55,373 bases of DNA from a virus: the IMG/VR virus record IMGVR_UViG_3300027899_000016, positions 1 through 55,373 of that record; one strand, given 5' to 3'. Below, in pieces: positions 3,001-47,941 of the stretch. A program made the position numbers and the translations under genes. The notes under the pieces are model-generated. The model saw only the letters and a program-made list of their open reading frames with translations. It did not search any database and was not told the DNA's origin. How positions within the stretch are numbered: position 1 is the first letter of the stretch; every line of letters starts with the position of its first letter.

Positions 3001-3242
3001 GCAAGCTTAGCTTCTAAGTTTAGAATTACATCATTTACTAGATCTTCAATAGGTGTTGTAGCCTTGTCAGCTTCAGTAACTTTATCTTCTTCTTCTGCCT
3101 CCGGATAATAGTTGAGATCATCACGGTCACCAAAACCTTCTCTATACCATTCTTGTTCAGCCAGTGCTTCATTACCATTGTTCTTGATTACAAGGTCCTT
3201 CCACTCCTGGCTGTTTTTATTTATGCACTTCTTAATTGACAT
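1..3242 (-). CDS. Giant virion/cargo protein, N-terminal 1,080 residues (cut by window edge)
   Basis: The frame is open from an ATG at 3242 down to base 1, so this is the N-terminal part of a longer protein. It begins MSIKKCINKNSQEW. Residues about 40-330 are highly charged and helical, with probable coiled coil. A region near residues 690-800 is rich in small and hydrophobic residues. A hydrophobic stretch near residues 980-997 (ILALTALVMVL) is followed by a run of five Asp and could be a membrane segment. The start lies 3 bases after the TAA of the polymerase gene, so the two are probably translationally coupled. I do not recognise an enzyme domain. By position next to the virion polymerase and by composition, I infer another large packaged (cargo) protein of a crAss-like phage, or a separately encoded part of the same complex. 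Confidence 0.8.
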   Translation of the reverse strand, partial: MSIKKCINKNSQEWKDLVIKNNGNEALAEQEWYREGFGDRDDLNYYPEAEEEDKVTEADKATTPIEDLVNDVILNLEAKLAVLQRKKVQNYERTKNEIKRLVEQVRDVKGVQSIMLFVDDVYDKAIVAEKQFKSFVKSINQQSGKAAIDQLIAFYDFANRYELLDEISKEDVFEHFTSDLSPEEQEAAGIKSPQQKLTYAISVRNQIKQQVSQYGIPLIADWLMTYKSEAREGLGEEVKSLEADIARVEANTRISDEVREKELTKLRDRLSKVKGFNLTKESLVRYLREISGDMSGFEYLTGAMISAADPVLSIFAKAIKTEMDNARIKNIQLEQEAAKVFEEYVSAVGGNRDNPAELNRGLYETIRIPQRDAVGRVIRIAGEIQYEDRVSYVQKYDMSKYFAERQNLPQAFVLSDNPSPPELDAYRIRQAARRDWFKENTQPKSASEIQQILNGKQRELNARIITQDEYDNWYSSVAYTDPATGQLVYMGELTEPSNKFLNKAWLELYDLNGKPKNAKGKYHKWLTDTYLSYQEGLPEAQQPGYLLPSIYKTNGERMIDNPRRGVKTRLQEQFTFMEGDTQFGPATIAGTKEKFIPVYYTWSIKPEDVSLNLMRSTLMFAGMSNNFKALNDIHSEVVLYKKIVGERDVAETNVKGDPLLNPLAKRLGIERYITKEGESYSAKRVNDFIDMIIYGEMDTRQSVLGLSANKLTGSLIGFAALTSIAADIMKGVANNLQGNIQVLIEAASSEFFSIKNLMRGKSYYMKSIPGFLGDFGKFTADSLGGKLFDLYDPMQGDYMDNFGRLVTASVANKLFRVDTLFFNQHFGEHEIQVSNLFALLDATTVIDNESNQEMSLLDAYEKYGVEEIYNKTDFTDGKRQNVMNRLHALNKRMHGIYNDFDKATAQRYSLGKLAFMYRKYLVPAYKRRFKNLGYDEELGAPTEGYYKTFWNLYLKNLVTLKTSLIKNWADMSPFEKAQTKRIIAEATLILALTALVMVLRGMADDDDDELKKNWAYNFVLYQAIRMRSETSQYVPIYGIRDAYRTVKSPSAATTTIDRAIKFTDQFFIQSLDPEKAVYQR

Positions 3243-3245
3243 GAT

Positions 3246-6200
3246 TTAGCAAGTATATTTTCTAATTATTTCTTCAATCCTTTCAACTTCACTCATAGTA
3301 GTAGCATTCTTGATGTCTTCCATTAACTGGAATATATTATACCCATCTTCTGCCATTGCAAGATCTAGACTCATTAGGTTTATCATTTCTTTGATATCTC
3401 TAATTGACTGCTTCTTTCTTTCTTCTGTTACAGGTACAACTACTTCAGGAACTCTCTCAACTTTTCCAGTTCTGAGATCCATGTTTCTAAGATACATAGT
3501 TTTTCCATCAGGACTGACAAGATCATACAGATTGTTATCATTTAGTAAGTATCTTCTACCATTAGATGAATTGAATTCTTTAGGGAAAACACCATTATTC
3601 TCCTCTAAATATGTATTGAATTCAGTAATTTCTGGATTTGCTTCAGGTGAAACAGAACCTTCAGAAACACTTCTAACACTATTTACCGGCTCTACTTGGT
3701 AGACCTGTCTAGCCTGACCTTTATTCATGAAGCTAGCACTAAGAAGATTGTTCTTCTTAAAATCAGCAGCACTCTTAAATCCTTCTGATTTAGCAAATTG
3801 ATCTAGAGTTCTATTTGTTTTAGAACCGGTCTCCTTATTTGTAATAGTAACAATATCTGTTTTATTATTTACTGTAGCCTCACCAAGGTACTTAACTTTT
3901 ACAATAGCACCATTGTCCATAGTATAGAACTCAGAATCTGTAGATAGAGCATTAATTCTATTAGTCATGGTCTTAGTACCATTCATAATCTTCTTGATAT
4001 CTGACTCTGCAAGTGTAAGCCTAGGATATGTGTTCTCTTTTTTCTCTTGTGCACTAAAGTCTAGTCCAAATAGTAATGGTTGATTAAAGTTATAGTTTGT
4101 TAAATCAACTAAATAACCTCCAGTACTTCCTTTTAGACCATCAATCTTTGGTTGGTACTGGAGTGATACACCCGGTACTTTACTTAACATAGTGTAAATA
4201 GCACCAACAGAAATTGGTGAACCTTGTGTTAATTGAACTTGTCTTTTTATTATATCATCATTAGTCTGCGGATTCTTTTTGGCTTCAGTTAGTGCTTTTA
4301 GAGCAAAGTCCATTTCATCTTGTGGAATTGGATCACCAGTTACACGATCTTTTTCTACAACAATATTGTAGTCATTCATCTTTAAAGTAAGTTGCTCATC
4401 ATATGCTAGTTTATATTTGATCATGTCAACTTCTTCTCTTGAGTACTTAACCTCTTCAGGACCAGCATAGATTTGTGCTGTTCTTGGATTTGCTTGGGTT
4501 AACATAGTTGCATCAGAACCAGTAAAGAATAGAGGAGTCTCCTTACCATATTGTTTAATGTGTGTCTGGAGTACTTGATGAATTAGTGGCATGAAATACT
4601 GTAACTCAACATTTAAAAGTTTTTCAAGATCTGTTTTAGCAGCTTCAATAGCTTCAGTTTGATTTTCACTTAGTTCAGTTGCTCTTTTTATTAGCTCTTC
4701 TGAGTCAGCTTTTAAACTATCAAGGCGCCATGCCCCATAATTACTATCATAATCTTGTGCCATTCTCTCATTAAGAGCTATTGCAGATGCTTCATCTCTT
4801 AGTCTTACAAGTTCATTATAGTTGTAGTTAATATTATTTACTAATACATTGTACTCATCTCTTGTAAGCTTAAGCATTCTCTCAACAAAGTATGCTTTAT
4901 TTCTATTTGCAATATTAGATAGTACAAATTGCTTCTTGTTTGCAATATCTTTGTTAAGTGAATTAGTAATAGCATTTGGTAGTACAACTTTTAAGAAGTA
5001 GTTAACAGAAGTATTAAGCTGGGTTCTATTTGTTCTTGGTTGATATTGTGGTTTAATAACACCACCATATTGTTGGGAGAACATTGTATCAAATTCTGCG
5101 CGGTTAAAAGCAGGGAACTTCTTTTGTATTTTTGAGAACATATCTTTATAGACTTGTTCTGGAAACTGAAAGCTTTGTCTATTATTACCAGTAGTTCTAT
5201 TAGCATCTTCTATGGCTTTCTTTATCATCTGTTTATCATCTTCTGATAGGAACTGTTCAAAACCACCAGTAGATCTAATGCTGTTTACTATTCTAGTTTG
5301 AGTATATAGACCATCAAGCAGTTCTTGTTGACGTCTTATAGTGTCAGTATACTGAGATGGTTGTTCTAAGTAGATCTGATCATGCTGATAGAGATCTCTA
5401 AACTGCTTATAACTAAAATCATCATCTTTTAATCTATTATCAATTACTCTTTGATAGACAGGAGATTTGAATATATTTAGATGTTTAGGATCATTAGATA
5501 ATATTTCAAACCCACCTGTTGCTACTTGAGCCTCAGCATCTTTCATGACATCTGTCATTTCATCTACATATTTTTGTAGTGGATTTGATAATGTTTTAAG
5601 TCTTGATGTACCTTCTCTCAGTGTTTCAATCTGGTCATTTTGGATTTCATGTAATAATACAGCTACCCTTCCAGATTTATCTTGTGGGAATGCAGTTAAA
5701 CTTGCAAATGCTGAAGGTGCAAGACTAAAGTGTGGAGCTCTCTTATAATATGTATCATTAAATCTTAGAGATATTTTTTGGTGGAGTACTGGGTCACCAG
5801 ATGGTAATCGTGTATCTTCAAAGGTATTGTATACCATATAGTCCAAGTGATCTAGCTCATTAGCAAAGCCTAGCATGTAATTTGTTTCTAGGAAAACATA
5901 TGCTTCATTAACAAATTCTTCTGCAGTAATGGACTTTTTATTAGGGTTTTCTGCCTTAATAGCTTCAATTACATTTTGTAGTAATGCAAGTTCCTCCTTC
6001 TTTACACCATCTACTTTTAGTTTTTCAGAAAGTGAAATTGGATTCTTCTTGTACTTGGTTAGTATCTGAGGAATTGCTTTTAGTGTAGGTGTAATTGTTT
6101 GATAATCTCTTGCAGTTTCTAGATCTTTTCTTTCTTCTGGAGTTAGTTTCTTTGTTAAGCTTAAACTGCTACCAGTTGCAAACCTACTCTCTACATTTTG

Positions 6201-9200
6201 TAAGTACATTGGAATACTAGGCATTCCTTTATCATAGATACTATATAGTTTATTAAGGGTCTTTCTTAGATACCTTGTTTTTCTCTTATATGTTTTATTG
6301 AGAAGTCTATCTACAAACTTTTTCTGATCTTCTATCTGTTGGATTACTTGTTTAGAATCTTGAGCATAATTAGTATTAGCATATACCCAACTATCAAGTT
6401 CTTCTATTGTAGAGAACAGTGGTGAGTCTGCTACAGCAAAGAGGTTGTTACCTTCCTCATCTGTTGTGATCAACAAGTTATCTTGGAAGTATGCGTAGTC
6501 AACAGGATCTATAGAAGCTTCAGTTATTGCTGTATCAGGGAATGCTTGATTACTTAGCTCAAGATATTCTTCCCACGTCATTAGATCAGATAGATCTGAG
6601 CTTAATATCTTAATAGCAGCAACTTCAAATATATCTTCTTTGGTTTCATTTTGTTTATAGATACCAAGTACTCTCTTAATAAAGTTAATAAACCTAGTAA
6701 AGAAAGAATTATCCTCTGGAGTGCTCTCTCTAGTTTCTACTCTCTTGATTGCAGCAGCAATTAACTGACCAATAGACTCCTCGGTAAGATCTTCTGGACT
6801 ACTAACTAGATTACCGTATTGGGTTCTGTATAGTTCATTATTCTTAACTGATGTTTCATGAGCATCCCATAGAGCCTTCTTAAGTGGACTATCAGCTTTT
6901 AACAATCTGTACCAGAAGTGAGCTGCCTCTTCAGGAAGTTTGTTCCATGCAAGAGGTCTCTTTTCAAATTGGTCTATGATGTCTACTGTACCCTGCATGA
7001 AGTTGGCTACAGCAAGTGCATTATCTACAACAGAACCATTAGCAGATAGAATTTCTGGAACAAGTCTCTGCTCAATACCAACAGCATCAAGGAAATTAGA
7101 TACTTGATTAAGTGTACCTGTTTGGAACTCAAGGTTTTGTTGGTTAGATATATCCAGACCAAACAGTTCATCACTAGCAGTACTATTGATATTGGAGAAT
7201 CTAGACTTGAAGCTACTTTCACTTGATATATCAACTCCCGATATGTTTCTAAACTTCCAGCCCTTAGGTGCAAGAACAATTGTAGGTAAGCCTAATCTTA
7301 TTCCAGCTTTTGCACCAGCTTCATCAAAACCAGTCTGACCACCACTTCTTACAGACTCAATCTTGTTATTTAGTCTAGGTGATTCTGTAACAGCTTTTAG
7401 AAGTCCGTATGTGAAATTGTCTATTTGAGCTTGAGTATATTTACCCCTCATTGTATAGATACCATTTCCAGCAATGTTCAGAGTTTTTGCATTGACAGAA
7501 TTCAACATATCTACTATCCTATTTACTCTCTCAGCTGTAACTTCTATAGAACTAGCATCAATAGGAATGTACATTTTATTTTGAGCTAGCACAGAAGACT
7601 TAGTCAACTTTTCTCCAGCACTATTAAAATCAGTAGCTAGTGCTATAGTAGCATCAGCAGATGCATTTATTCTAGTTCTTGCAGAATAACCTGTATTTTG
7701 ATCTTCTTGGAAGTCAATCTGATTTGTAGGTGTAACAGGTTGAGTTTGTTGACCAACTGTACCTACAATTTCTTCTGGATCAAATGATGGCTCAATATTA
7801 GTTCTTACATTAGAAGGATTGTTAATTTGTACCGGAGTAAGTAAATAGTTCTTAAATAACTTACGGTTGTTCTCAACAGATACCAGCTTATCAAATATTA
7901 GATTAAGAGTATCTTGAGTCCAGTAGTTTAGTTTAAATAAATCTCCAGCATTTCTAGTGGCTGCAATAACAGTTTCTTGTGGTACTACTAGCTCTAATCC
8001 AAATGGAGTAGTTCCATTACCATGTTGATACACTGCTATTTTTGGAAGAAGACTGAAGATAGCACTAATTCTGTTATTAGCATCTCCCCTAACTTTCTGA
8101 ATTCTTGGGTTACCAAGTGCTCTGATATTAGCAGCATACTGACTCTTAGTACTACCATCTACTACATCTCTGTCATTTAGAGTTAGAAGATAACTATCTC
8201 TAGAAGCTCTAGCGGACAGTTGTTCTAATACAGGATACTCAGATCTAAGACCAGGAAACTCATCAACAAGATCAAGTACCATTTTGGTATATGAGTATTC
8301 AGTATTTTTAGTGAGAGCACTTGGATTGTATACAGTCATTAGAGATACTTGGTTTAGTTGTAAACCAGTTAGACCCTGAGTCTTTTGGTATGCTCTTTCT
8401 AAAACGTATCTGATGTACTGCTCTTCTGTAGTAAATGGATCTTCAGTAATATTAAATGGTTTTAGACCATCTCTATTTTTGTAAGCTGTGCCAGCCTCTG
8501 AATTAGCTAGATAAGCTTTTTCTCTGTAGTCTCTCTTGATGTTATCAAGGTTTATGATGAACCCTTTATCTGTATAGATAGCATCATTATCTAATGCTTT
8601 ATTGTTAGTAACATTTGCATCACGATAAGTTTCTGGTACAGAAATAATATTACCCCTTGCATCTACAAAATTTGATAAGTAGTTCTGGTATATAAAGTTT
8701 ACTATAGCATCTTTATAAGCATCAATGAAAGCTACAACACCATCTGTCCCAATACCAAAAGATGATATATCTCTAGTGGCAATAATTTCTTTAATAGCAT
8801 TATTGGTAATACTGTTGTTAATGAGATCCATCATTGGAGCAGCAACATCAGTGATGATGCTCTTGTCAAAGAGTGAGCTTACAATACTTTGCTTGAATAG
8901 CCTTTCCTTAGTTACTTGATCAATCTTACTATTCTCATCTAAGAGATCTCTGTTTACATCATCTAGATATACCTGTTGGAAGTTACTATAGGTTTTTGTA
9001 TCTGGTTTTAGGAGTCTCTTCATTGCAGATAGACCCATGAGTTGTTTTTGGATCTCATAGAAATGTAAGAACATACCCATCTGAGCTATAATCTGCTCAT
9101 TGTTAAGATCATTTACATTCTTTTTACCTTCAATGATATCCTGCATCATGTCTACTGAGAAGTTACCATCTACTCTTTCAGCTTTCTTTATAGCAAAATC

Positions 9201-12200
9201 AGCTGCATTATAGTATAGTTGGTTTCTTAGGTCTGGTGCAAAATAGATATCAGCTTTTGATGGTCCACCTTTTTCCGGATATATTCTCATTATTTCAAAA
9301 GGATTAATATTTCCTCTCTGGATTTCTAGTGCAAGTTGTCTCTTCTTAACCTTAGTCATCACTGGTTTTGGCTGCTCTCTAAAGTCATCCACTGGTCTAA
9401 ACTCAACATTGAATTCAATATCAGGTCTCACACCATCCATGATAGCATATAAATATCTTGCAGTATATTTATTTACTACATCTCTAGCAGATTGGAACTT
9501 AGTGAACTGTGATGCACTTGGTGCTATTCCTAAAATTGCACCATAGTCACCACCAATAAGTCTTTGCTGTTCTGCAAATTCACGGATCATTGGTTGTGAT
9601 ACAAAGTATGCTGCATCTCTTACAGGTACACCAGCTTTAATTAAGTATAGAAATGTTGGAGCAATCTCATAGTTACCTTGGATATAGAAGATCCACTCGT
9701 CTTTTTCTACATCTACCCAACCATTCATACCTTGAGAATATACATCAGCAATCTTATCAATACCATCAGCGGTATCAGTATCTGATATAGAAATGTGATC
9801 TCCAATTTTATTGTGACGGAGATTCAGTCTCATATTATACTCAGCAGGGTTCTTAGTATCTACAACATATCTACCATTTACATATTTGGTAGCTTTATAT
9901 GTCAGTGGCATTTTACCACCAGCAGCATCAAACATTGGACTTAGTTTGTTTTCAATAGCTGCAATACCAAGTACTGCTTTACCAACTAAATTCTCCTCAT
10001 GTTTGGCTAAATTGTATAGTGGCTCTAATGTAGTAGTAGGGCTAAGTATCTTTTTGTCACCCTTCATGTTAATCTCACCATTTTGTTTGGTGAACTTATC
10101 ATAAGTACTAACATCATCCTGCAGTTTATCAGCAAGATCTTTTAGTATATAGGTATCATTAGGTCTAACTAGTGGAGCATAGTTTTCAGGTAGCTCAAGG
10201 ATAGATCTAATACTATCAATAAATTGATTTTGTGTAGCAAACTTCTGTTGTTCAATAAACTTCTTTCTAGCTTTCTTATCCTTAATCTTATTTGCTTCTG
10301 CCATGAAGTCTTTATTACTAGCAGGAGCTTTATATAGATTACCATTCTTATCAATGTTAGGGAAGAATGTGGTAAGTTTATCAACGTCAAAGTCACCACC
10401 AGACTTAGCAACAATCTCTGTTGGTAGCATAATTAGGTTACCTGCTGCTGGATCTAAGAACTCATATACTTCCATGAACTCCATAGAGTTAAGACCCTGT
10501 ACAGGAATACGTACAGCAGCCATAGTGATCTTCTTTCTGTTATCTTCAGTATCTAACCACTTTTCATTCTTGATCATCTCATTGAGTCTTTGTCTAGTCT
10601 CAATAGGTTTACCATCAATGTGTTTTAGATTCAGTAAGTTTTCAAAGTCACCCTGTAAAGCAATAGCAACTTTCATTGCATTGGTTTTACCATCCTCACC
10701 AGGGTGGTAGAATGGAAGGTTATTAGTTCCTAGAAACTTCTTTCTCTCAGCATCAGTTGGTTTTTCAAATCTTGGTCCACCTGTAATTAGACCATTACTG
10801 AATGTGCTGGCTACTTGTACAAGAGGTTCACCTTTGACATACTGTCTTACAAATCTCTTTTCTACAATAGATAGAATAGTTTTTTCAATAGTTTTTCTAT
10901 CTATAAAGTATGATAGATCACCCTTAAGTGTTCCATCACTATTTGTTTGAAGTTGTCTAAGTAAGTGATCTGGATAGTCTTTTCTTTCTAAGTTCTCTCT
11001 GATTAGTTTTAAAAACTTATCAGGTTTACCTACAAGCTTGTTACCGTCTTTATTATACTCAATCTCATTTAGTAGTTCATACTTAAGGAGATCAGTATAG
11101 AAGTCTACAGTCTCCTTATACTCATTTACAATTGGTGCATAATCTTTATTAACCAGCTGACCTTGTTGATATAAACCACTAGTAATTAGGGCTCTCAACT
11201 GTGTAGAGAATACAGTCTCACCCTTGTACTTACTATTTACAGAAGCAGCTTCTTTTAGAAATCCTGCATGTATCGTGTTTACTGTAAACTTGATGTTCTT
11301 TTTAACAATAGTTTGAGCAGCATCTTCAAATACTATATCGGCTTTACTACCAGTAGGTGCAATATGACCTACTTTAGAACCAGACTCAAATGTAGCATAA
11401 TGTACATTTTCCGTCATCATCTGTTTGTGAAGTGACTCAAAATCAGTTCCCTTAATCATACTTGGAATTAGAGGCATAAGTGCAAACTTGTGCATTGCAG
11501 TTACAGGGAGTACTGTGCCTTCAACAAAACCAAAGTTCTGTAATTTATAAACCGGGAACATCTCAATAATCTCAGATGCTTTTACATCTTCTTTATTTAC
11601 AATTCTCTGGTATAGATTTTCTTGTGGGTCAGACCATTTATTCTGTAATACCTTAAGCATTCTATATGCATCAAAGGTAATGTATCCTTGACCATCTGCT
11701 TCTTTAAGTTCGTCAGCAGAATATTTAGCTACTTCCTTTTCAACACGTTCTTTAATAAGAGCTTCTTTATTTGGAATGTTTCTGTTCTTATATCTTCTTT
11801 CATAATCAGCAGTAAGACCCTTACGGATTACATCAGCATAAATACTCTCTCTCTGTACTTCCTGCATAATAGCAGTATTAACATAACCCTTATACATAAT
11901 AGGAGCCATGTTCTCACTTGCTGCATATGAAGTTTCTCCAAGATACTGACTGAATGTTTGTGCATCTAAATCACTTCTAACTCTAGGTCCATTTGATATG
12001 AGACCTGAAATTCTTTTATGTAGTTCTTGTTTCTTATGATCATACTGAGCAATGTCACCCAAGAATAGGATACTAGTCTCCATATTATGGATCCAGTAGT
12101 TGTACATGAAAGCTTTTACTAATGTTTTTTCTCTTTGCTCATTGGTTAGATTATCAAACTTTAATCTATCCATGAGTGTTTTGTCAACAAATGGAGCTTG

Positions 12201-15200
12201 TTTTAAATAGTTATAGAGCTCATTTGTCTTGTTAGTAAAGTATCCCTTGATCTCAGCCTTTATCTTCTTTGCTAGTTCAGGATCTGTTTTAAGATAGTCT
12301 TGTAATTTAACTCCAGGACTCTTAACCTTTTCTAGGATTTCATTTTGAGTATTTTCAGTTAGTATACCATCAAAGTAGACAAATGATTCACCAAAGGTTT
12401 TACCATTTTTAAACTCTCTGTTATAGCCAACATAGTTCTTAGCTTCAGGACTCTCATTGTAAATGTTAATTCTCTTGAGCTCAGAAGATAAATATGGAAT
12501 CATAATGGTCTCTATAGTATCAGCTTCACCGGCTGTATTTGGTAGAAGAGACTCAATATCAACATAGAGATGTGCATCTTTTTTATTTATAGCACTTGTA
12601 GCTATACCACCATCTATTTTCCAACCAAAAGATGAGTTCTTGGATCCAGGGCGCATTAGTTCTACTCTACCAGTCTTTAAGAACGTGTGCATCTCTTGGA
12701 TGAACTTACCTCTCTTATCTAAAGATGTAGTATTTGAACCTGTGATAGCACCATCTCTAATAGAACCATTTTGACCAATTATAGTATTAATTGTTTGAGT
12801 ACCAGAAATTGTCTCAACCATAACAGATCTATTAGGTCTCTTTGTATTATCTGGTAAGAACATTGATCTTATTGCAAGTGATGACTCTGCAAATGGGTTT
12901 ATAGAGGGATCAAGATGCTTTGCAGTTGAACCAAAACGGTACATATCAGTTCTACCATTAGCGGTATTTATAGCATCAGCAATAACTGTTAGTGAACTAT
13001 CATTAACATGTTCATTAACCCTATTCTTTTCAGGATTCTGTACTGAGAATGTAGAAGCAGTTGAACCAAATTTATTCTGTAGAGTTACAATTCTATCAAT
13101 CTGGGTACTTTGTTTAGATCCTTTTTTAAATACAAAACTATCCTTCAGACCTATTACTCCAGGATCTATACCATTCCTGAGTGCAGTAATTGGATTTCTC
13201 ATAAAATTATTAAGAATCCTTCTTGCTCCATCAGACATTGATCCAGCTTTCTGAGCATTATTTAGATCTTTAATTGTATCAAATATGTAACTAACACCAA
13301 AATATTTGGCATTATTGGGATCAGATAGTTCTTGTTTGATCTTACCAAGGTCATCTAAGTTGAAGCCCATAGCATTTAAGAACAAGAACTCACTGCCTGT
13401 TTTGAAGTTACCAGACCTATCTGAAAACTGTTCAATGATTTTATCAAGTTTTAGAATAGTATTGTTGTCAGCATCTCTTCTAGTAAATGCACTATCTAGT
13501 CTTGCTGCAAAACTAGCCTCAAACTTACGGATGGTATTACTAATATCAGTAGATGCATTAGTTACTTCTACTCCACTTGTTTCAGATCTAGTTATCTTTT
13601 TGTTTCCTTTATTATCAATCTCTTCATACTGATTTCTAAACACAGTAAGTTGCATGTATGGCACACGTGGTAAACTAAACACAGACCAGAAGGATGTAAC
13701 AATCCCAAATGATCTCATCTTGTTACCTATTGTACCCTCTGCACCAATTGATTCTGGATTCGGAAGTCTAAACTTAATAAGTTGTTCTAGTTCAGGATAT
13801 GTAGCAATAGCATCTTGAATGTTCTTGTACATCTGTCTAGGATCCTTAGTACTATTTGTTGCTCTTACAACAGCATTCCAGACCTTTTTGTAATTTGCAA
13901 GTTTCTTATAACCAAGTTTATTGTACTCATAGATTGGTTTTCCTCTAGAGTCTCTTGTAACTGCAAACAAACTTTTTAGAATATAGACTACTTCTTTATC
14001 TACAATCTCTAGCAAATTTACATCAGCACCCTTATCAAATTTCTGAGACTTAGTTGCATCTAATTGAGCATCTTCATCTTGAGTATCATTTTCTGGATCA
14101 GTTTCTTGAATCTTTACTTTTTTGGTCATTATATTAAATGAAGACTTCTCTTCAAAGTATTTAATAACCTTATCCCAGTTGTCTCTTGCCGCTTGTAAAA
14201 CTCTTAGATTGTCTAAGAGAGCAGCCTGATCATAGTCAACTTCAAAAGCACCTACTGTTCTATCTGGAAAGAGCTCAATATCTGTAAAAGAAGTATCATC
14301 ATCTTTTTCATATGCATCAAATTGGGCTTGAGCTTCTTCTAATGAATTTACAACAATGATGTCAACTGCATCTTTGTCTTTGGACTTAATAGTCTTATGA
14401 CTATAGTAGTCACCTATAATCTCAATAGTACCTTTGTATAGTTCACCTTTAATTCTTTCACCACTCTTGGTATCTAAATTAAGATTACTAAAGTCTTCAA
14501 CCTGACCTTTTAAGAAGATATACTTATCATCTCCCTCTTTACTCCTAATAATAGCAACAGCATTATCTTCAAGGTTCTGAAGTGTTTCAAATGAGTTAAA
14601 AGATTTAGCTGGCTTTACATTAAGTTGACCTTGTATGTTTTCAATATCTTTTAGAAATCTCTTTCTTGCAAAATCAAAGAACTGGCTCTTATTATTCTCA
14701 TTACTAATAATAGATATTGCTGCATCTAGAGCTCCCTTTTTCTCAAATGTATTGTCAACAACTGTTGATAGCAGTGAGTCTAGTGATTCAATAACAAGAG
14801 CAGAGTCAATCTCATCAAGAGCATCTTCTTGATTATTGTTGACTTGTTCTATACCACGGTTTAGCTCATCAAGTGCAACATTAGTAATTAATGGTGTATA
14901 GTTATTGAGCAGTGCTGGATTCTTAGATGCAAAGTATAAGTTTTGGAATAGCTCACCTGCAACACCTTCTGTTGCAAGTTCTTCACCCCTAATTAAATCA
15001 GCTGTAGAAGGTGTAATTCTAAATAACTTTTTGAGGAAGTTAAGTATTCTTCTAAAGAGTGTATTTCTTTTTGGTTGACCCTTAATTACTTTTGGATTAA
15101 GCGCATAAGATCTAAAATCTTCAGCTAACATTTCTTCTACTTCTCTTGCAGAGAGATTAGCATATTCAGGTTTTAGTTTTCTTACTTCATTATATAATGC

Positions 15201-17957
15201 AGTCTTCTCTTCTTTTGTTAGGAACAACTGAGAGAATACGTGCCATGCCTCATGATATGCGTCTACCATTGTGCCGCCTGTGGTTGGATTGATTAAGATA
15301 GCACCCATTTTACCGTCAAGGTCAAGGTTCATATCAGTAATTAATCTTGCACCAGCTGCAACAAACTTACCGTATACATTAGAGTTTACAATGTTAGCTG
15401 CAGGGAATAGTCTAATATATTTACTAAGTGGAGAGTTTTTCCACCACTTGATTGCATTTTCTACTTGTGCTGCAGTTACACCATTTGGTAGGCTAGCTGA
15501 TCTGTCTAGTTCAAAATTATCAATTAGGTCACTTATATCTGTTGAATCCTCAGGTTGATTAGTATATGGTGGATTAGTAATATTTACATCACCAGCTTTA
15601 GCCTGATCCTCTGTTACAGTTTTGCTAAATGGTTCTACTGATTCTACAGCTTCATCTTCAGCTGCTCTCTCTGCAGTTACAGTTTGAACAGGAATAGGTT
15701 CTCTTCTAGGTTCATTAGCACTAAAATCTCTTTCAGCAAGAGACCCCATATCATAAATTCTACCCTCTACTTCAGTATATGCTTTTACAGTATCTTTAAA
15801 TAAGAAACCATTATCAACTACATCTTTAACTTCAAGATAAACTTTATCACCTACTTGTGCCTTACTGCTTAGGTAGAACTTATGCACTCCCTCTTGACCA
15901 TCTATTCTTACATCTAATGTATAGGTTGGTATTTTATCTTTAGTTTGTGTTTCTCTAACTTCTACTACTTCTCCAGTAATACTTTTTGGATCAGCAAATA
16001 AAATTGCTTCAACCATCTTGTCTTTAAACTTACGGACTTCAGATCTATTATCTACTTCTTCAGATTGATCATTTGTAATTTCACCTAGTACTCCAGTTGG
16101 TAGACCAAATTTAACATAGGCATTGAATAATGGAACACCTTTTTTACCTAATATTATTTCTCCATCTTGTTGTCTCAAGAAGTCTATATAGTTTTTCTCT
16201 ACACGCTCCCCATCTACATAGTCCATATAGGTACCCTTACTTAATAGGGGCTGACTGTAATCAAACTTGGCTGCATAGTATTTTCCTGACTCAGAGGTCT
16301 TACCATTCATGAGAATTTCAAAGATCTTCTTCTTATTACTTTCTTTTAGATTCTTATCTTCTAGATTGAGTGTTGTGGATGGATTGACTTTTGAGTCACT
16401 TAATTCAACCTGTTTTCCTGTAAAAGCAAAGTACTTAAATGTAATCACATTAGTATCCCTATCAAAGTATACCTGATGTCTTCTAGTTGAATTGGGAATG
16501 TCTACTATCTCCTTTGCATAGAACTGACTATACCAGTCAAACTTTTGTGTAGGAGTTAGTTCATCTGAAGTTAGTACTTCAGCAATCTTGGTAGCTAAAT
16601 CTGATTTGATATCAGATCTATCTAGTTGTACTATTGTACCATTACCCAACTTTATAATAGTCTCACCACTACCAAAACCATAAGAAGGTTTATCTAGAGT
16701 TTGTATGTTACCAATAATTAGTTCACTAAGTGTTTTCCCATTAGATTCTCTTGCATAGAATGATTCAAGCTGATTTATCTTTAGGTTCTTGATACTAGTA
16801 TTAGATACACCCTCACTAGCTCCAGTAATTGGTAGAATGAACTTCTCACCCTTAATTAACTTTTGTCTTAGATCATATAGTTGTTTAGCCTCTGCTTGTT
16901 GTTCTGCTTCAATTTCTGCAGCAAATTGCTGTATGGTCTTACCAGTTTTTGCTTTGAATTCAACAGGGGTTGAGTACCCCATTTCTTTCATGCGTAGTCT
17001 AGCTTCTTCTGCTGGTAAGATAATTTTATTTTCTATACCATACATATTAGTAACTACATACTTACCACTACTATCTCGTCTTACTTCTCTAAGAGTCTGA
17101 TAAGCATACTTACCATTTTCTTTTGTAGTAATATTACCATCCTCATCAAAGTAAAGTGGTCTGCCTTGTTTATCTGAGATAACAAGCATGAACACCTCAC
17201 TTGGTAGGGTTACTTTTCCTGTACCCGTACCCTGGGCCTCAATAGAATTCATTCTAATTAGAAGATCAGATGTTTCTTTTGTCATCTGAGCATCTGGCAT
17301 TCTATTTAATGCAATTGGAACAAGAGTAATTTCTTGTCCCTGGTATATAGGATTACCTAGAGTTGTATCAAACTGAAAAGTAGTTCTATGTATTCTAGAG
17401 ATTGTATTGTAAATTCTTGTCTTATCTCTGTCAAGTCTTTCTACAGTAGTTTGTGTTTTCTTTGTTGGATCTAGAGTTATGAATTCCTGACCTGTTCCAG
17501 AAAAAATTGTTCTACTTTTTAGTTCAATCTCTTCAATCTCAGCATCCGGATCAATTGGATCTGATGTAGTTCCTACAGGATTGTTTGCTTTATAATTAGC
17601 CTCTGCAGCTAGCTCCTCAGGAGTAAGTGGTGCTAAACCTAAATACTTTTCAATAGCAGATAAACCTGTATCAACATTTCTAAAAGCTCTTGTAATTTGT
17701 CTTAGTTCTTCAATGGGCATATTCAAACTAAGTTCACCACCTAGTTGTGCTTCTACACTACCTATAATATATGGTATTTGTTGAATATACTGTATTGCTG
17801 CATCTCTTCCCTGTGCTTTTTCAAAACCATTGTACATATAATTTATGTACTGGTTTACATCAAAAGTTTCTCCGGCAGGAGTAGTAAGCATCTTTTTATA
17901 GACAGCATCTAAAAGTTTGATAATATTATCACGACCAAGGGTACAAGTAATTGCCAT
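3246..17957 (-). CDS. 4,903-residue multidomain protein with crAss-type virion RNA polymerase signature
   Basis: Probable virion-packaged DNA-dependent RNA polymerase of the double-psi beta-barrel class known from crAss-like phages (phi14:2 gp66 is the characterised member). The key sign is DFDVD at residues 2522-2526 within the context KSGGDFDVDKL, matching the DxDxD Mg-binding signature of that family. Around it, in order, I see an HEAWH zincin-type motif (902-906) with a downstream EExLAEDF; the polymerase core; a SLOG/MoCo-carrier-like segment with SGGQTGFDEAG (about 3461-3586, core Q3541-D3545); a degenerate EEAAHFW peptidase-like motif (H3680); an EIQND motif (4104-4108) like that of large polyvalent phage proteins; and an ASCH/PUA-like domain (about 4640-4755). 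No membrane segments were seen. The start ATG sits 3 bases after the upstream TAA. Polymerase assignment is fairly firm; the accessory domains are motif-level calls. It would be injected to transcribe early genes. Confidence 0.85.
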   Translation of the reverse strand: MAITCTLGRDNIIKLLDAVYKKMLTTPAGETFDVNQYINYMYNGFEKAQGRDAAIQYIQQIPYIIGSVEAQLGGELSLNMPIEELRQITRAFRNVDTGLSAIEKYLGLAPLTPEELAAEANYKANNPVGTTSDPIDPDAEIEEIELKSRTIFSGTGQEFITLDPTKKTQTTVERLDRDKTRIYNTISRIHRTTFQFDTTLGNPIYQGQEITLVPIALNRMPDAQMTKETSDLLIRMNSIEAQGTGTGKVTLPSEVFMLVISDKQGRPLYFDEDGNITTKENGKYAYQTLREVRRDSSGKYVVTNMYGIENKIILPAEEARLRMKEMGYSTPVEFKAKTGKTIQQFAAEIEAEQQAEAKQLYDLRQKLIKGEKFILPITGASEGVSNTSIKNLKINQLESFYARESNGKTLSELIIGNIQTLDKPSYGFGSGETIIKLGNGTIVQLDRSDIKSDLATKIAEVLTSDELTPTQKFDWYSQFYAKEIVDIPNSTRRHQVYFDRDTNVITFKYFAFTGKQVELSDSKVNPSTTLNLEDKNLKESNKKKIFEILMNGKTSESGKYYAAKFDYSQPLLSKGTYMDYVDGERVEKNYIDFLRQQDGEIILGKKGVPLFNAYVKFGLPTGVLGEITNDQSEEVDNRSEVRKFKDKMVEAILFADPKSITGEVVEVRETQTKDKIPTYTLDVRIDGQEGVHKFYLSSKAQVGDKVYLEVKDVVDNGFLFKDTVKAYTEVEGRIYDMGSLAERDFSANEPRREPIPVQTVTAERAAEDEAVESVEPFSKTVTEDQAKAGDVNITNPPYTNQPEDSTDISDLIDNFELDRSASLPNGVTAAQVENAIKWWKNSPLSKYIRLFPAANIVNSNVYGKFVAAGARLITDMNLDLDGKMGAILINPTTGGTMVDAYHEAWHVFSQLFLTKEEKTALYNEVRKLKPEYANLSAREVEEMLAEDFRSYALNPKVIKGQPKRNTLFRRILNFLKKLFRITPSTADLIRGEELATEGVAGELFQNLYFASKNPALLNNYTPLITNVALDELNRGIEQVNNNQEDALDEIDSALVIESLDSLLSTVVDNTFEKKGALDAAISIISNENNKSQFFDFARKRFLKDIENIQGQLNVKPAKSFNSFETLQNLEDNAVAIIRSKEGDDKYIFLKGQVEDFSNLNLDTKSGERIKGELYKGTIEIIGDYYSHKTIKSKDKDAVDIIVVNSLEEAQAQFDAYEKDDDTSFTDIELFPDRTVGAFEVDYDQAALLDNLRVLQAARDNWDKVIKYFEEKSSFNIMTKKVKIQETDPENDTQDEDAQLDATKSQKFDKGADVNLLEIVDKEVVYILKSLFAVTRDSRGKPIYEYNKLGYKKLANYKKVWNAVVRATNSTKDPRQMYKNIQDAIATYPELEQLIKFRLPNPESIGAEGTIGNKMRSFGIVTSFWSVFSLPRVPYMQLTVFRNQYEEIDNKGNKKITRSETSGVEVTNASTDISNTIRKFEASFAARLDSAFTRRDADNNTILKLDKIIEQFSDRSGNFKTGSEFLFLNAMGFNLDDLGKIKQELSDPNNAKYFGVSYIFDTIKDLNNAQKAGSMSDGARRILNNFMRNPITALRNGIDPGVIGLKDSFVFKKGSKQSTQIDRIVTLQNKFGSTASTFSVQNPEKNRVNEHVNDSSLTVIADAINTANGRTDMYRFGSTAKHLDPSINPFAESSLAIRSMFLPDNTKRPNRSVMVETISGTQTINTIIGQNGSIRDGAITGSNTTSLDKRGKFIQEMHTFLKTGRVELMRPGSKNSSFGWKIDGGIATSAINKKDAHLYVDIESLLPNTAGEADTIETIMIPYLSSELKRINIYNESPEAKNYVGYNREFKNGKTFGESFVYFDGILTENTQNEILEKVKSPGVKLQDYLKTDPELAKKIKAEIKGYFTNKTNELYNYLKQAPFVDKTLMDRLKFDNLTNEQREKTLVKAFMYNYWIHNMETSILFLGDIAQYDHKKQELHKRISGLISNGPRVRSDLDAQTFSQYLGETSYAASENMAPIMYKGYVNTAIMQEVQRESIYADVIRKGLTADYERRYKNRNIPNKEALIKERVEKEVAKYSADELKEADGQGYITFDAYRMLKVLQNKWSDPQENLYQRIVNKEDVKASEIIEMFPVYKLQNFGFVEGTVLPVTAMHKFALMPLIPSMIKGTDFESLHKQMMTENVHYATFESGSKVGHIAPTGSKADIVFEDAAQTIVKKNIKFTVNTIHAGFLKEAASVNSKYKGETVFSTQLRALITSGLYQQGQLVNKDYAPIVNEYKETVDFYTDLLKYELLNEIEYNKDGNKLVGKPDKFLKLIRENLERKDYPDHLLRQLQTNSDGTLKGDLSYFIDRKTIEKTILSIVEKRFVRQYVKGEPLVQVASTFSNGLITGGPRFEKPTDAERKKFLGTNNLPFYHPGEDGKTNAMKVAIALQGDFENLLNLKHIDGKPIETRQRLNEMIKNEKWLDTEDNRKKITMAAVRIPVQGLNSMEFMEVYEFLDPAAGNLIMLPTEIVAKSGGDFDVDKLTTFFPNIDKNGNLYKAPASNKDFMAEANKIKDKKARKKFIEQQKFATQNQFIDSIRSILELPENYAPLVRPNDTYILKDLADKLQDDVSTYDKFTKQNGEINMKGDKKILSPTTTLEPLYNLAKHEENLVGKAVLGIAAIENKLSPMFDAAGGKMPLTYKATKYVNGRYVVDTKNPAEYNMRLNLRHNKIGDHISISDTDTADGIDKIADVYSQGMNGWVDVEKDEWIFYIQGNYEIAPTFLYLIKAGVPVRDAAYFVSQPMIREFAEQQRLIGGDYGAILGIAPSASQFTKFQSARDVVNKYTARYLYAIMDGVRPDIEFNVEFRPVDDFREQPKPVMTKVKKRQLALEIQRGNINPFEIMRIYPEKGGPSKADIYFAPDLRNQLYYNAADFAIKKAERVDGNFSVDMMQDIIEGKKNVNDLNNEQIIAQMGMFLHFYEIQKQLMGLSAMKRLLKPDTKTYSNFQQVYLDDVNRDLLDENSKIDQVTKERLFKQSIVSSLFDKSIITDVAAPMMDLINNSITNNAIKEIIATRDISSFGIGTDGVVAFIDAYKDAIVNFIYQNYLSNFVDARGNIISVPETYRDANVTNNKALDNDAIYTDKGFIINLDNIKRDYREKAYLANSEAGTAYKNRDGLKPFNITEDPFTTEEQYIRYVLERAYQKTQGLTGLQLNQVSLMTVYNPSALTKNTEYSYTKMVLDLVDEFPGLRSEYPVLEQLSARASRDSYLLTLNDRDVVDGSTKSQYAANIRALGNPRIQKVRGDANNRISAIFSLLPKIAVYQHGNGTTPFGLELVVPQETVIAATRNAGDLFKLNYWTQDTLNLIFDKLVSVENNRKLFKNYLLTPVQINNPSNVRTNIEPSFDPEEIVGTVGQQTQPVTPTNQIDFQEDQNTGYSARTRINASADATIALATDFNSAGEKLTKSSVLAQNKMYIPIDASSIEVTAERVNRIVDMLNSVNAKTLNIAGNGIYTMRGKYTQAQIDNFTYGLLKAVTESPRLNNKIESVRSGGQTGFDEAGAKAGIRLGLPTIVLAPKGWKFRNISGVDISSESSFKSRFSNINSTASDELFGLDISNQQNLEFQTGTLNQVSNFLDAVGIEQRLVPEILSANGSVVDNALAVANFMQGTVDIIDQFEKRPLAWNKLPEEAAHFWYRLLKADSPLKKALWDAHETSVKNNELYRTQYGNLVSSPEDLTEESIGQLIAAAIKRVETRESTPEDNSFFTRFINFIKRVLGIYKQNETKEDIFEVAAIKILSSDLSDLMTWEEYLELSNQAFPDTAITEASIDPVDYAYFQDNLLITTDEEGNNLFAVADSPLFSTIEELDSWVYANTNYAQDSKQVIQQIEDQKKFVDRLLNKTYKRKTRYLRKTLNKLYSIYDKGMPSIPMYLQNVESRFATGSSLSLTKKLTPEERKDLETARDYQTITPTLKAIPQILTKYKKNPISLSEKLKVDGVKKEELALLQNVIEAIKAENPNKKSITAEEFVNEAYVFLETNYMLGFANELDHLDYMVYNTFEDTRLPSGDPVLHQKISLRFNDTYYKRAPHFSLAPSAFASLTAFPQDKSGRVAVLLHEIQNDQIETLREGTSRLKTLSNPLQKYVDEMTDVMKDAEAQVATGGFEILSNDPKHLNIFKSPVYQRVIDNRLKDDDFSYKQFRDLYQHDQIYLEQPSQYTDTIRRQQELLDGLYTQTRIVNSIRSTGGFEQFLSEDDKQMIKKAIEDANRTTGNNRQSFQFPEQVYKDMFSKIQKKFPAFNRAEFDTMFSQQYGGVIKPQYQPRTNRTQLNTSVNYFLKVVLPNAITNSLNKDIANKKQFVLSNIANRNKAYFVERMLKLTRDEYNVLVNNINYNYNELVRLRDEASAIALNERMAQDYDSNYGAWRLDSLKADSEELIKRATELSENQTEAIEAAKTDLEKLLNVELQYFMPLIHQVLQTHIKQYGKETPLFFTGSDATMLTQANPRTAQIYAGPEEVKYSREEVDMIKYKLAYDEQLTLKMNDYNIVVEKDRVTGDPIPQDEMDFALKALTEAKKNPQTNDDIIKRQVQLTQGSPISVGAIYTMLSKVPGVSLQYQPKIDGLKGSTGGYLVDLTNYNFNQPLLFGLDFSAQEKKENTYPRLTLAESDIKKIMNGTKTMTNRINALSTDSEFYTMDNGAIVKVKYLGEATVNNKTDIVTITNKETGSKTNRTLDQFAKSEGFKSAADFKKNNLLSASFMNKGQARQVYQVEPVNSVRSVSEGSVSPEANPEITEFNTYLEENNGVFPKEFNSSNGRRYLLNDNNLYDLVSPDGKTMYLRNMDLRTGKVERVPEVVVPVTEERKKQSIRDIKEMINLMSLDLAMAEDGYNIFQLMEDIKNATTMSEVERIEEIIRKYTC

Positions 17958-17960
17958 TGA

Positions 17961-20900
17961 TTAACAAATTTTTGAATTAAACACATCACTTTCTAGATCT
18001 TCAATCTTAGCATCTTTGATTCTATCTTCAACATTATTTATTTCTGTTTTGATAACCTCCTGCGTTAGATCAGAACTTTCTTTTAGTACTGCTTTAGTAT
18101 CATCAGTTTGTTTTACCACTGGTGCTTGGGGTTTGATTGCTGTGCTCATTTCTGTTTGAGAAGTTAATTGATTGAAAGTAATAAAGATACTGCTTTTGCC
18201 ATTGATTCTGCTAACATTTATTCCTTTATCTGTAATAGATGTAATAGTAATTGGGTCACCTGGAAGTGCCCAGAACCTACCATTATTGTCTGTCATGGGT
18301 TGTGTCACAACTCTATTAGCATATTGTTCTTTTGGAATACCGTTCTTTATAATATACTCAATTTCTGCTTTAGGTAATAGATTAATTGTAGAATCACTAT
18401 AGCCCATTAGGTTTAACTGATTTCTAAGATCTTTTTGTATACTAGTTACAACTTTGATTCCTGTAGCAGCTTGTGGACTACTTTGTACTTGTTGTGAAGT
18501 AGATTGTTGTTCAACAAGAACTGCAGTAGCACCAACAGCATCCTGCGGAGTAATCTCTACACCAGATAGTACATCAATAGTTCTTGTACTATTTCCCCCC
18601 GCATCATAGTCTAATGCAATTGGTAATACAGCAAGTGTTCTAGCTTTAAGACCATGAGTATTGTTTAGTAGGATTCTATATAATGATAACTGTTCTGTAT
18701 GCTGTTCACGTTTAGATTTACCAAACCTCTTAGATTCATATTTAACTAGGTTCTCACCTTCATATGTTTCAGCAAACTGATTACCTCTCATTGTTTTGAT
18801 GTCATAGATTCTCACATCACCATTTCTATCAAAGGTTAATAAATCTACAGTACCTGCAATACCAAGTTCATCATTGTATAGTACAACATTATTAGCTAAA
18901 ACTATTTCTCCTCTTGCATCAAGAGAGGCTTTAATAGTCTCTAGTCTGGCTTTGAGTTTTTCTATTTCTTCAACTGGAGCAAATGTATACTTACTAGTAT
19001 CTTTTAGTTTACCAGCAAAGAAGTCTCTAATATAATCATCAATAGCATTACCGAGAGTAGTAGAACTTGCAAGTAATAGTTTATTATTAATGTCTTTATC
19101 ACTATAACCTAGATCTTTAAGTCTTCTTGTATAGTCTTCCATAGACTCAGTTTCCAACTTAGGATCTTTGATCTCATCTTCTTTAGTGTAACTGGTAACC
19201 CGCATATACTCTTTACCAGTTCTGGTATTAATATACTTGGTACCATCTTCAGTCAGTTTAATGAAGGATGCATTTTTAAGAACTTCTCTGATAGTACTTC
19301 TTACAGAATCAAGTTTTTGTTCTTGTGCTGTAAGTGGTCTACCTGCTTTTTCACTTAGTGCTTGATCTAGATCAGCAATGTCAGCAAGGGAGAATGTAGA
19401 AATAATAGTTTTTTCTTCTTCATCTTCAAATACCTGTTCAACAGTTTGTGCCCTTACTTCAGTAGGAACTGGACTCTTAACGTCTCCGCTACTAATTGGT
19501 TCTCTAATAATATCTCCAGCAACCGGTTCAAGTAGATCATATAGATATCTAAGTTGATCTTGATACTTCTGTAGAGCTGCTTCTAGCTCCATCATTCTAT
19601 TTGTCTCTTGTTCTCTAACCTCATCTATGAACTCTACATTGTCCATAGTAGTATTGATATCTCTTTCTAGCTGGTTGACCTGTCTGCTAAGTTCTGCAAA
19701 GCCCTCTACCTTCATTTTACTGATGTCATCAGTAGCACGAATTAGTTCACCTAGATTAGCAGAAACTTCTTCATATCCAGTATTCTTTTTAAGTTTAGAA
19801 AGTGCAGAGTTTTGTTTTTTCCAGATACCTAGATACTCTTTTAAGTACTCTGTAGATCTTGCAATAGCATTTCTAAGAATCTCAATTAGTCTCTGGATTG
19901 TACCCATCTTCTTCTCAATCTTCTTGATCTTATTGCGGATATCAGTTTTAGTAAATAGATCAAACTTAGGGTCAGCTAATAGGTTTCTATAGTAGTCAGC
20001 CTGTTTTTTAAGATCTTTTCTAATAGCAGCTAGTTGTTCCTGTTGTTGTTTTAGTTCACGAACTCTATTCATGATATCATTAGCAATAGCAAACTCTCTT
20101 CTCAGTTGTTGTTTATAAAGACCTGATCTTTCTTTAATCTTACCAGATCTCTTTTTCTGATTAGCTTTAAGTAACTGTGCTGTAGTTTTGTCAAGTTGTT
20201 CTATCTTGTTAATCAGATCTTCAACTTGTATACCAGTAAGCTCTACAGTATTATCAAGTAACTGTTGTAGATATTCTAGTGTATCAGCTATCTCAGCCTC
20301 TTCTTTTTCAATTAGCTTCTTCTTCTCTTCAACTAGATCTATTCTTCTTTGTAGAGCTTGTTCTGCTAGCTTTTTACGCGTAGCAGTTTCAGCAGCAAGT
20401 TGTTCTGCGTCAGAAGAAAATTCTTTCTCGGCAACCTCAGCTTGTTCACCATAAGCTTCTACATCAGCAATGTATCTTCTCAGACGTGCGATGTTGAGCT
20501 CATCTATAAGTAGATCTTCTTTCTCTTCATCAGTTAGTTCTTTCTGTGATCTAATAGCATACTGTGATTCTAGATCTGCAAGAATTTCTTTAGCTTGTTC
20601 TAGAGTGTACATAGCCATATCCATCTCCTTGCCATTGTAGTCAATGATAGGTGGTATAATACTTATAGCCTGTTCTTCAAGCTTTCTAGCCTGCATTTCT
20701 TTATTGTAGTTCTCAATAACTTCTTTGGCTTTTGGATTTGTTCTAACAAACTCTTCAAATTTATTAAGGAGTTCCTCTTCAGTTAGTCTAGAATAAACAT
20801 CTATTAATGGTTCCCCATTCTCATCTTTGTTAATATAGTTTCCATCCTTATCTTGTTCTGCCACAAAGTCATTAAACTCAACTTGTAGATCTGTATATAA

Positions 20901-30032: not shown

Positions 30033-30041
30033 GATATAAAG

Positions 30042-34634: not shown

Positions 34635-34692
34635 TACACAGTGTATATACTAAATATAGTAAATTAAAATTTAAACTGTAAACTTATTTAGT
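34635..34692 (-). promoter_or_regulatory. Candidate promoter/leader before the 1,530-residue gene
   Basis: This 58-base AT-rich gap contains TTAGTATAT on the minus strand at 34645-34653, ending 10 bases before the ATG at 34634. The same nine bases precede the starts of the 193- and 550-residue genes. A short palindrome TACACAGTGTA lies at 34635-34645, and GTAAAC/GTTTAC arms (34678-34696) overlap the end of the preceding gene. No Shine-Dalgarno box is present. Promoter function is inferred only from the repeated motif and its position. Confidence 0.3.
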
Positions 34693-46862: not shown

Positions 46863-47941
46863 TACATGTATCTTCTATTGTAACCATTGGTACCATTGTA
46901 ACCATTATTTCTATAGTATCTATTATCTGGAGAATAACTCTCAAACATATAATAATATTTACCGTACATAGCTTTTCTATTAGCCCACCACATATCAGCC
47001 ATCTCTCTAAAGTTTGGAGTATTGACAAGACTTAATGCAGCATTTCTAGCTACTCTTACTCTCTGTTCAATAAGCTGCATTCTTTGTGCTACATCCTCTC
47101 CATTCAAATAAAGGTTTTCCATGATTCTTGCTTTTAATGCATACTCATAGTATTCATTAAGTAGATCATGATCTGGAACTAATAGGTTACCATTCTCATC
47201 CTCCATTTGACCTTGGTAGTTTAAATATACTTTACCAGTATCAAAGGTTGTGAATAAGAACCCATCTTTGATCCAACCTTCATTTGGGGTGTTCCAATAA
47301 AGATTTGGACAGTCACATTCTATATTCTGACTAGTCTTCATTCTTAATGGAAAGAGTTGTGTATAAACTCTTGTAGATCCTGGATTACTAATTACTTGAA
47401 CAAGTTCATACTTATCTCCTTTACAGTTCATAAAAACCCTTGGTCTTGTACAAACATCTCCATAAGGAGCTAAAGGATCATACTCAGTTGGAATAGGATT
47501 GGGAGCACATGTAGCAGGACATGTATTGTCTGGACATGCTGCAGTATGGTTACATGGATTTGCATTACATGTAGCACAGTTTACTGTAATTGGTGCACAT
47601 ACATCTACGGTAGCTGGAGTCTCTACATATGGTACTTCTTGGATATTAGTACCACCCACCCATCCATTATAACCCACGTGTTCAGTAAAGTGACCACAGA
47701 TAAATGCAAAGTTGAATGTGTAGAAATCATCTGGTAGTTTTACTTTACCATGACAAACATCAAGAATTACTTCTCTTTGTTGATTGATTCTTAAACCAAG
47801 ATCATAGTTTAATTTCTTTACCAGTTTAATTAACTGCTGTGGCTCTATCATATTTTCTAGAGCAAATGTATTTAAGTCAACTGTTACATCTTCTAACAAT
47901 TGATTAAATGTTCTGTACCGGAGTGTGTAATTAAAGTCCAT
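46862..47941 (-). CDS. Probable tail ring protein, 359 residues, with Cys-rich insert
   Basis: Conserved-looking N-terminus with YRTFNQLLEDV, LIKLVKKLNYDLGLRI and LPDDFYTF, a pattern I associate with the ring/adaptor protein encoded next to the muzzle in crAss-like phages. Residues about 110-148 are an insert with about nine Cys and many Pro/Asn. The C-terminal third is helical with Arg- and Tyr-rich sequence, ending in an Asn/Tyr/Gly-rich tail. It lies between the 220-residue protein and the muzzle with 1-base TAATG overlaps on both sides. By synteny I infer a ring-1-like component of the tail barrel, but which ring it represents cannot be settled by eye. Confidence 0.65.
   Translation of the reverse strand: MDFNYTLRYRTFNQLLEDVTVDLNTFALENMIEPQQLIKLVKKLNYDLGLRINQQREVILDVCHGKVKLPDDFYTFNFAFICGHFTEHVGYNGWVGGTNIQEVPYVETPATVDVCAPITVNCATCNANPCNHTAACPDNTCPATCAPNPIPTEYDPLAPYGDVCTRPRVFMNCKGDKYELVQVISNPGSTRVYTQLFPLRMKTSQNIECDCPNLYWNTPNEGWIKDGFLFTTFDTGKVYLNYQGQMEDENGNLLVPDHDLLNEYYEYALKARIMENLYLNGEDVAQRMQLIEQRVRVARNAALSLVNTPNFREMADMWWANRKAMYGKYYYMFESYSPDNRYYRNNGYNGTNGYNRRYM

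Follow-up and report, generated by a model that had tools for sequence, protein, structure and literature searches.

The DNA analysed here is a 55,373-base IMG/VR virus record (the window, WIN), and all close relatives of its polymerase, given L numbers below, are metagenomic. On its minus strand, positions 3246-17957 hold a stop-free frame of 4,903 residues (R, the giant virion RNA polymerase), in which residues 5 and 4903 are the sole cysteines, flanked by two co-directed and likewise very large frames which we name U and D, for the upstream and downstream cargo proteins. U (17961-24674, minus strand) has 2,237 residues, its only cysteine is the last residue (codon 17964-17966), and its residues 1812-2017 form a PD-(D/E)XK exonuclease-like domain (phrog_298, E 3.7e-14). 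D (3-3242, minus strand) is cut by the window end, has more than 1,080 residues and carries a single cysteine at residue 6 (codon 3225-3227). By gene order R belongs to the cargo block, which follows genes of the tail tubular and muzzle types (PHROG virion structural matches at 41268-46862, 46862-47941 and 47941-48603). An earlier note on this DNA had described R as one frame joining a virion RNA polymerase with several unrelated enzyme-like modules. The frame is indeed uninterrupted, and it is not a chance one because 58 distinct full-length homologues of 3.1-4.9 kaa were recovered and purifying selection acts on it, cassette included (dN/dS between WIN and L002 of 0.07 in the core and of 0.14 in the exchangeable cassette described below, the latter figure coming from few changes). 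Also in the virion block, a short x-G-G linker (QMGG, YGG, EGG, NGG) recurs between segments of three proteins of 757, 1530 and 2191 aa encoded at 27759-41268; in the 2,191-aa protein (34693-41268), residues 393-503 match an endolysin profile and the region close to the C-terminus matches amidase/endolysin profiles.

The motif positions in R are those given before: DFDVD at residues 2522-2526 (10380-10394), HEAWH at 902-906, EEAAH at 3676-3680 and EIQND at 4104-4108. Single-sequence searches of Pfam, NCBIfam and PDB with R detected the SLOG domain alone and missed the polymerase, for which profiles were needed; a megablast of the window against phages gave no match. A profile of 47 homologues over residues 1879-3018 has phi14:2 gp66 (6VR4, chain 6vr4_A) as its sole PDB match, in two stretches (E 4.5e-55). 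Similarly, the AF2 model of these residues (pLDDT 86, pTM 0.85) finds 6vr4_A in Foldseek with E 4.7e-29 and TMq 0.63, and no other significant match. Around residue 2524, where the earlier note held that a model lacking double-psi barrels would count against its reading, the model is therefore gp66-like, and DFDVD as the signature of a crAss-type double-psi beta-barrel polymerase holds. On profile and model evidence, then, the core of R (7770-14720, minus strand; about residues 1080-3396, the extent set by alignment with gp66) is assigned to the gp66 family of crAss-type virion RNA polymerases. A tblastn search with residues 2200-3200 returned 91 phage records, nearly all crAss-like. Phage phi14:2 packages gp66 in its virion, and gp66 transcribes early genes; R is presumably packaged by the phage of the window as well. 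As a separate observation, in cr108_1 (L118 18759-19050) the polymerase frame is broken at DFDxD by about 290 bp that resemble an intron lying within the catalytic motif (AKAGSD / LYDIDK).

The N-terminal extension of R contains the zincin active-site motif HEAWH (15240-15254, minus strand) followed downstream by EEMLAEDF, that is, HExxH with a downstream Glu. HExxH is present in essentially all relatives whose sequence covers the N-terminal part, and the zincin profile matches the zincin of PhicrAss001 gp47 (E 1.3e-11) and U of cr85_1 (E 2.5e-17), so that conservation and homology bear out this motif. A second, degenerate zincin-like motif, EEAAH (6918-6932, minus strand), had been read as a peptidase remnant; this is plausible as a second zincin-like copy, since relatives keep an intact form of it (HEAAH or HEYAH in L026, L036 and L039, with a weak Pfam DUF4344 metallopeptidase match in L036). 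The earlier note had proposed a polyprotein cut in the virion or host, and the presence of a conserved HExxH in the polymerase chain would suit cleavage by the zincin that the chain itself carries. Nevertheless, we found neither evidence of cleavage nor a conserved site for it, the zincin of PhicrAss001 sits in its U protein (gp47), and virions of that phage contained gp47, gp49 and gp50 as distinct gene products (PMC10172136). We consider self-cleavage quite improbable, and nothing in this analysis supports a polyprotein that is processed in the virion.

Downstream of the core, the alignment of R with its closest relatives stops and restarts. The proteins align in blastp over residues 1-3396 (68-87% identity) and again from about 4645 to 4903 (59-67%), not between, and the borders are the same in DNA: WIN and L003 are 86.8% identical up to the border at codon 3396 and 88% identical beyond the cassette. 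Between the borders WIN has 3.84 kb, L003 has unrelated sequence of 1.32 kb and L008 has only about 0.35 kb. Residues 3397-4644 (4026-7769, minus strand) thus behave as an exchangeable cassette relative to L003, L007 and L008. Among WIN and relatives whose cores are 68-88% identical to it, the slot contains SLOG, the degenerate zincin and EIQND in WIN, an ADP-ribosyltransferase-like domain in L003, a P-loop kinase plus ADP-ribosyltransferase in L007, and a short linker with almost nothing else in L008. Across the clade, Pfam families at the slot are ADP-ribosyltransferase, AAA_33/zeta kinase, SF1 helicase, AlkB and SLOG, and metallopeptidase-like domains also occur. Further insert sites lie inside the polymerase (HD_4 in L027, alarmone-hydrolase-like by eye; AlkB and NADAR in L060) and at the N-terminus (SLOG in L010, where inspection by eye also shows a NADAR-like stretch). 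Tails are half shared or unshared even between L042 and L045 (95% identical in the core) and between L028 and L033 (93%), and judging from such comparisons cassette turnover is fast. Modules also move between lineages because the kinase is 77% identical in L007 and L042, whose cores are only 32% identical.

In the window cassette, the earlier reading of a SLOG-like segment stands: residues 3415-3579 (7221-7715, minus strand) match the circularly permuted YpsA family, Pfam PF12694 (cpYpsA), with E 1.7e-8 and 34.8 bits against a curated cut-off of 26.2, as well as phrog_10774 (E 1.7e-27), and share 42% identity with the last part of the polymerase protein of cr10_1. The EIQND motif (5634-5648, minus strand) is present as described and matches no Pfam family, and the Pfam search of the window protein matched no named polyvalent-protein family; nor did PADLOC find any defence-family match in the window cassette. 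The conserved C-terminal tail (3249-4025, minus strand; residues 4645-4903) is 60-70% identical in L003, L007 and L008, and its first half may have the ASCH-like fold that had been suggested. Support for this comes from the fold only, in that several of the best Foldseek matches of the AF2 model (pLDDT 79) belong to the ASCH superfamily (PH0355, EF3133, ZmASCH; E no better than 0.013); Pfam gave no ASCH match in the tail.

The earlier note had put forward the combination and order of the modules as the point deserving attention. The note was right that R is a virion RNA polymerase of crAss type to which enzyme-like modules have been added, but their particular combination and order are not conserved: SLOG, the degenerate peptidase and EIQND share one exchangeable cassette, and they do not constitute a conserved machine because this cassette is absent from phages whose polymerase is 88% identical. 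Replacement in frame between residue 3,397 and about 4,645 shows a swap slot, which looks new. The cassette may be a payload slot, through which host-directed or counter-defence enzymes would be delivered fused to the polymerase and which phages would exchange by recombination at the linker borders; a counter-defence role is a reasoned guess from family membership. Abrupt in-frame replacement could also be produced by a hitchhiking mobile element, either an intein or a homing element, removed by protein or RNA splicing, and crAss-like phages commonly have introns and inteins (PMC7886860). However, the contents of the slot are unrelated enzyme domains with no splicing or homing domains, and the almost empty allele of L008 retains a linker, so we find this origin extremely unlikely and keep the payload slot as the preferred reading.

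In terms of size and zincin content, R is not unusual. Giant polymerases of Suoliviridae reach 4,946 aa (cr118_1), 4,328 aa (cr109_1), 4,460 aa (cr10_1) and 5,794 aa (cr273_1), and their annotation goes no further than helicase, DprA-like, virion structural or hypothetical protein. Like R they are single-frame zincin-polymerases, with a C-terminal SF1 helicase (cr118_1) or SLOG (cr10_1), but unlike R they seem to have U fused to them and so have no N-terminal cysteine. Moreover, the polymerase of PhiCrAssBcn2 has SLOG at its start, and in p-crAss a fusion between a zincin protease and an RNAP-associated protein is already annotated. Most of the headline of the earlier note was therefore already known, because giant size and fusions with zincin and SLOG occur in known crAss-like phages. 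Phage phi14:2 shares with the window the polymerase family, the U-R-D gene order (gp67, gp66, gp65) and the terminal cysteines, although gp66, at 2,180 aa, lacks both the N-terminal zincin part and a cassette, and HExxH is absent from gp67 and gp66. PhicrAss001 has a polymerase and partners as in the window (gp47, gp50 and gp49) with similar terminal cysteines, and these proteins were detected in virions (PMC10172136); it differs in that the zincin is in gp47, gp47 lies on the opposite strand and no cassette was detected. In polyvalent proteins many conflict-type enzyme domains are joined in one injected chain (PMC5512222), a description that the domains of R relatives would fit if their chains are injected, with ART-PolyVal above the Pfam cut-off in L007 and below it in L003 and L039. 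In contrast to those proteins, R joins such domains to a virion RNA polymerase that is DNA-dependent and of double-psi type, and the paper on them makes no mention of crAss or SLOG (PMC5512222).

The terminal cysteines are the strongest feature that the earlier note missed. Over 58 distinct homologues of R, the interior holds 7 cysteines in 214,635 residues (0.0033%), where other proteins have 1.3-2.0% Cys. All 58 have a cysteine near the N-terminus (Cys5 in R, codon 17943-17945, minus strand, facing the C-terminus of U), and all 58 have one within the last 8-9 residues (Cys4903, the last residue of R, codon 3249-3251, minus strand). Their partners follow the same rule, with a C-terminal cysteine in U (58/58) and an N-terminal one in D (58/58), each protein having its cysteine only at that end and none at the end not facing R. 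If each protein's few cysteines were placed at random, both ends would be occupied with a probability of about 1e-5 per protein, a value that serves as a guide only since the proteins are related. The residues around the terminal cysteines are unlike each other (IRKYTC, NNCTNPFLGE, DPFKCS, NEKICK). Cysteines are also missing from captured modules: none occurs in the five fused SLOG copies (0 Cys in 5/5), while four stand-alone SLOG proteins have 1-5 each. The near-absence of cysteine except at the facing ends of U, R and D looks new, and we found nothing on terminal cysteines in the open-access literature on crAss cargo, cysteine and disulfide, to which the gp66 structure paper does not belong.

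This distribution extends to cultured phages and changes with the gene boundaries. With negative positions counted from the C-terminus, the cysteines of phi14:2 are at -1 of gp67, at residue 3 and -2 of gp66 and at residue 3 of gp65, with no others; those of PhicrAss001 are at -3 of gp47, at 5, 1334 and -9 of gp50 and at 5 of gp49, which fits the rule even though gp47 is on the opposite strand. The homologous zincin beside the U/R boundary is inside U in PhicrAss001 and cr85_1 and inside R in the window, so the boundary differs, and yet PhicrAss001 and the window both have cysteines at it. Where R and D are fused (Intestiviridae) only the U/R cysteine pair remains, and where U and R are fused (Suoliviridae, cr108_1) only the R/D pair does. 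On the other hand, where D is split (L059, L082, L093), D1 has gained a C-terminal cysteine and D2 has an N-terminal one in 3/3, as predicted. A second scan, which took in other crAss families, gave 65 further distinct polymerases, with start sites movable within 60 residues. Here, where R had its C-terminal cysteine and lay next to a D of at least 500 aa, D had the N-terminal cysteine in 29/29, and where R had its N-terminal cysteine and lay next to an upstream gene of at least 500 aa, that gene ended in cysteine in 32/33; when R had no N-terminal cysteine, the upstream gene ended in one in 0/11. Among complete frames, the C-terminal cysteine is missing in 26/26 whose part after DFDxD exceeds 2,250 aa (R and D fused) and present in 32/33 whose part is shorter than 1,820 aa. 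Facing termini each carry a cysteine and lose it when fused, with these exceptions: the last cysteine of R in cr273_1 is at -50, L167 has no upstream match, L170 fits at neither end, and the C1-like protein of p-crAss has a terminal cysteine without a pair. In the polymerases of Intestiviridae, cysteines in the interior are no rarity, with counts of up to 27. Between the split D halves of L093, a 197-aa frame (15664-16254) starting MKAPDYKGSCIYVI is GIY-YIG endonuclease-like in look.

We rather favour, with some caution, that R is a virion polymerase acting as the middle link of a U-R-D chain by pairing of terminal cysteines, and that it carries a payload slot. The C-terminal cysteine of U would pair with the N-terminal one of R, and the C-terminal cysteine of R with the N-terminal one of D, the simplest form of pairing being disulfides that arise in the virion. 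An end-to-end covalent link is suggested because the facing cysteines come and go with gene boundaries, as such a link predicts. The particle permits disulfides, because PhicrAss001 virions have them in the tail and portal vertex, including between different tail proteins (PMC10172136). Further, PhicrAss001 gp47, gp49 and gp50 are placed in the capsid cargo zone and, in the ejection model, pass the tail partly unfolded (PMC10172136). As a more general proposal, on which we are evenly divided, the Crassvirales cargo would be a continuous covalent thread in which U, R and D, joined by disulfides, are pulled in order and freed by reduction, the slot of R carrying lineage-specific effectors. In the U-R-D chain of the window, about 8,000 residues would leave the capsid as one thread with order and stoichiometry fixed, and the reducing cytoplasm would split it and free the enzymes. 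Other cysteines would have been purged so that no mis-pairing occurs while the thread unfolds and refolds; the purging in captured modules such as SLOG fits this avoidance of wrong bonds. The covalent bond itself, its timing and the direction of travel are what we infer.

The same cysteines might instead serve in assembly as contacts with the portal, the ring, C1/C2 or further proteins of the virion, or they might bind metal at non-covalent U-R and R-D interfaces. The disulfides between different tail proteins of PhicrAss001 speak for such contacts, as does the cargo protein of p-crAss C0531BW4 that resembles C1 (L110 3464-7378, 1,304 aa), whose single cysteine is at -2 with no evident partner nearby. 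But a third-party partner would not predict facing pairs that are lost pairwise on fusion and gained pairwise on fission, and a terminal cysteine is absent from both C1 and C2 of PhicrAss001, which makes this explanation doubtful in our view. A further possibility is that the depletion alone is adaptive, for unfolding at ejection, and that the terminal cysteines are harmless and tolerated. In this sense, the vRNAP of N4 (gp50) resembles R as a giant, injected protein with a cysteine-free interior (injection being presumed for R), although it is an unrelated polymerase of the single-subunit type and has no terminal cysteines. Since N4 ejects gp50, gp51 and gp52, which have zero cysteines, without any at the junctions, cysteine pairs are not needed for ejection in general. 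Tolerance leaves unexplained the 58/58 at facing ends, the absence at non-facing ends and the behaviour on fusion and fission, and we hold it to be very unlikely. Three other ideas were rejected. An intramolecular N-C disulfide of R does not agree with the one terminal cysteine of U and of D, nor with the many fused U+R proteins that have only one; by reasoning, cysteines at residues 3-6 are not at a lipobox as a lipoprotein signal demands; and chemical ligation is not apparent either, the cysteines not being at residue 1 and no C-terminal thioester logic being evident.

How several megadaltons of folded protein move in order through a narrow tail is an open question for both PhicrAss001 and N4. 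If the U-R-D chain exists, a covalent daisy chain of terminal cysteines would answer it for very abundant gut viruses, and it is testable on cultured phages; reduced and non-reduced samples of PhicrAss001 virions have both been analysed by mass spectrometry (LC-MS/MS) (PMC10172136). The swap slot, in turn, would make the virion polymerase double as a delivery vehicle for fast-changing enzymes and yields candidate counter-defence activities. Familiar enzymes that have been naturally purged of cysteine are, in addition, useful data for protein engineering.

In p-crAss (L110 30341-31608) and cr108_1 (L118 30002-30271), genes with a thioredoxin-like annotation lie within a few kilobases of the cargo genes and may bear on the proposed disulfides. 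At 51528-53417 the window also encodes a protein of 629 aa in which 52 residues (8.3%) are cysteine, so that this one genome holds both cysteine-rich and cysteine-poor extremes.
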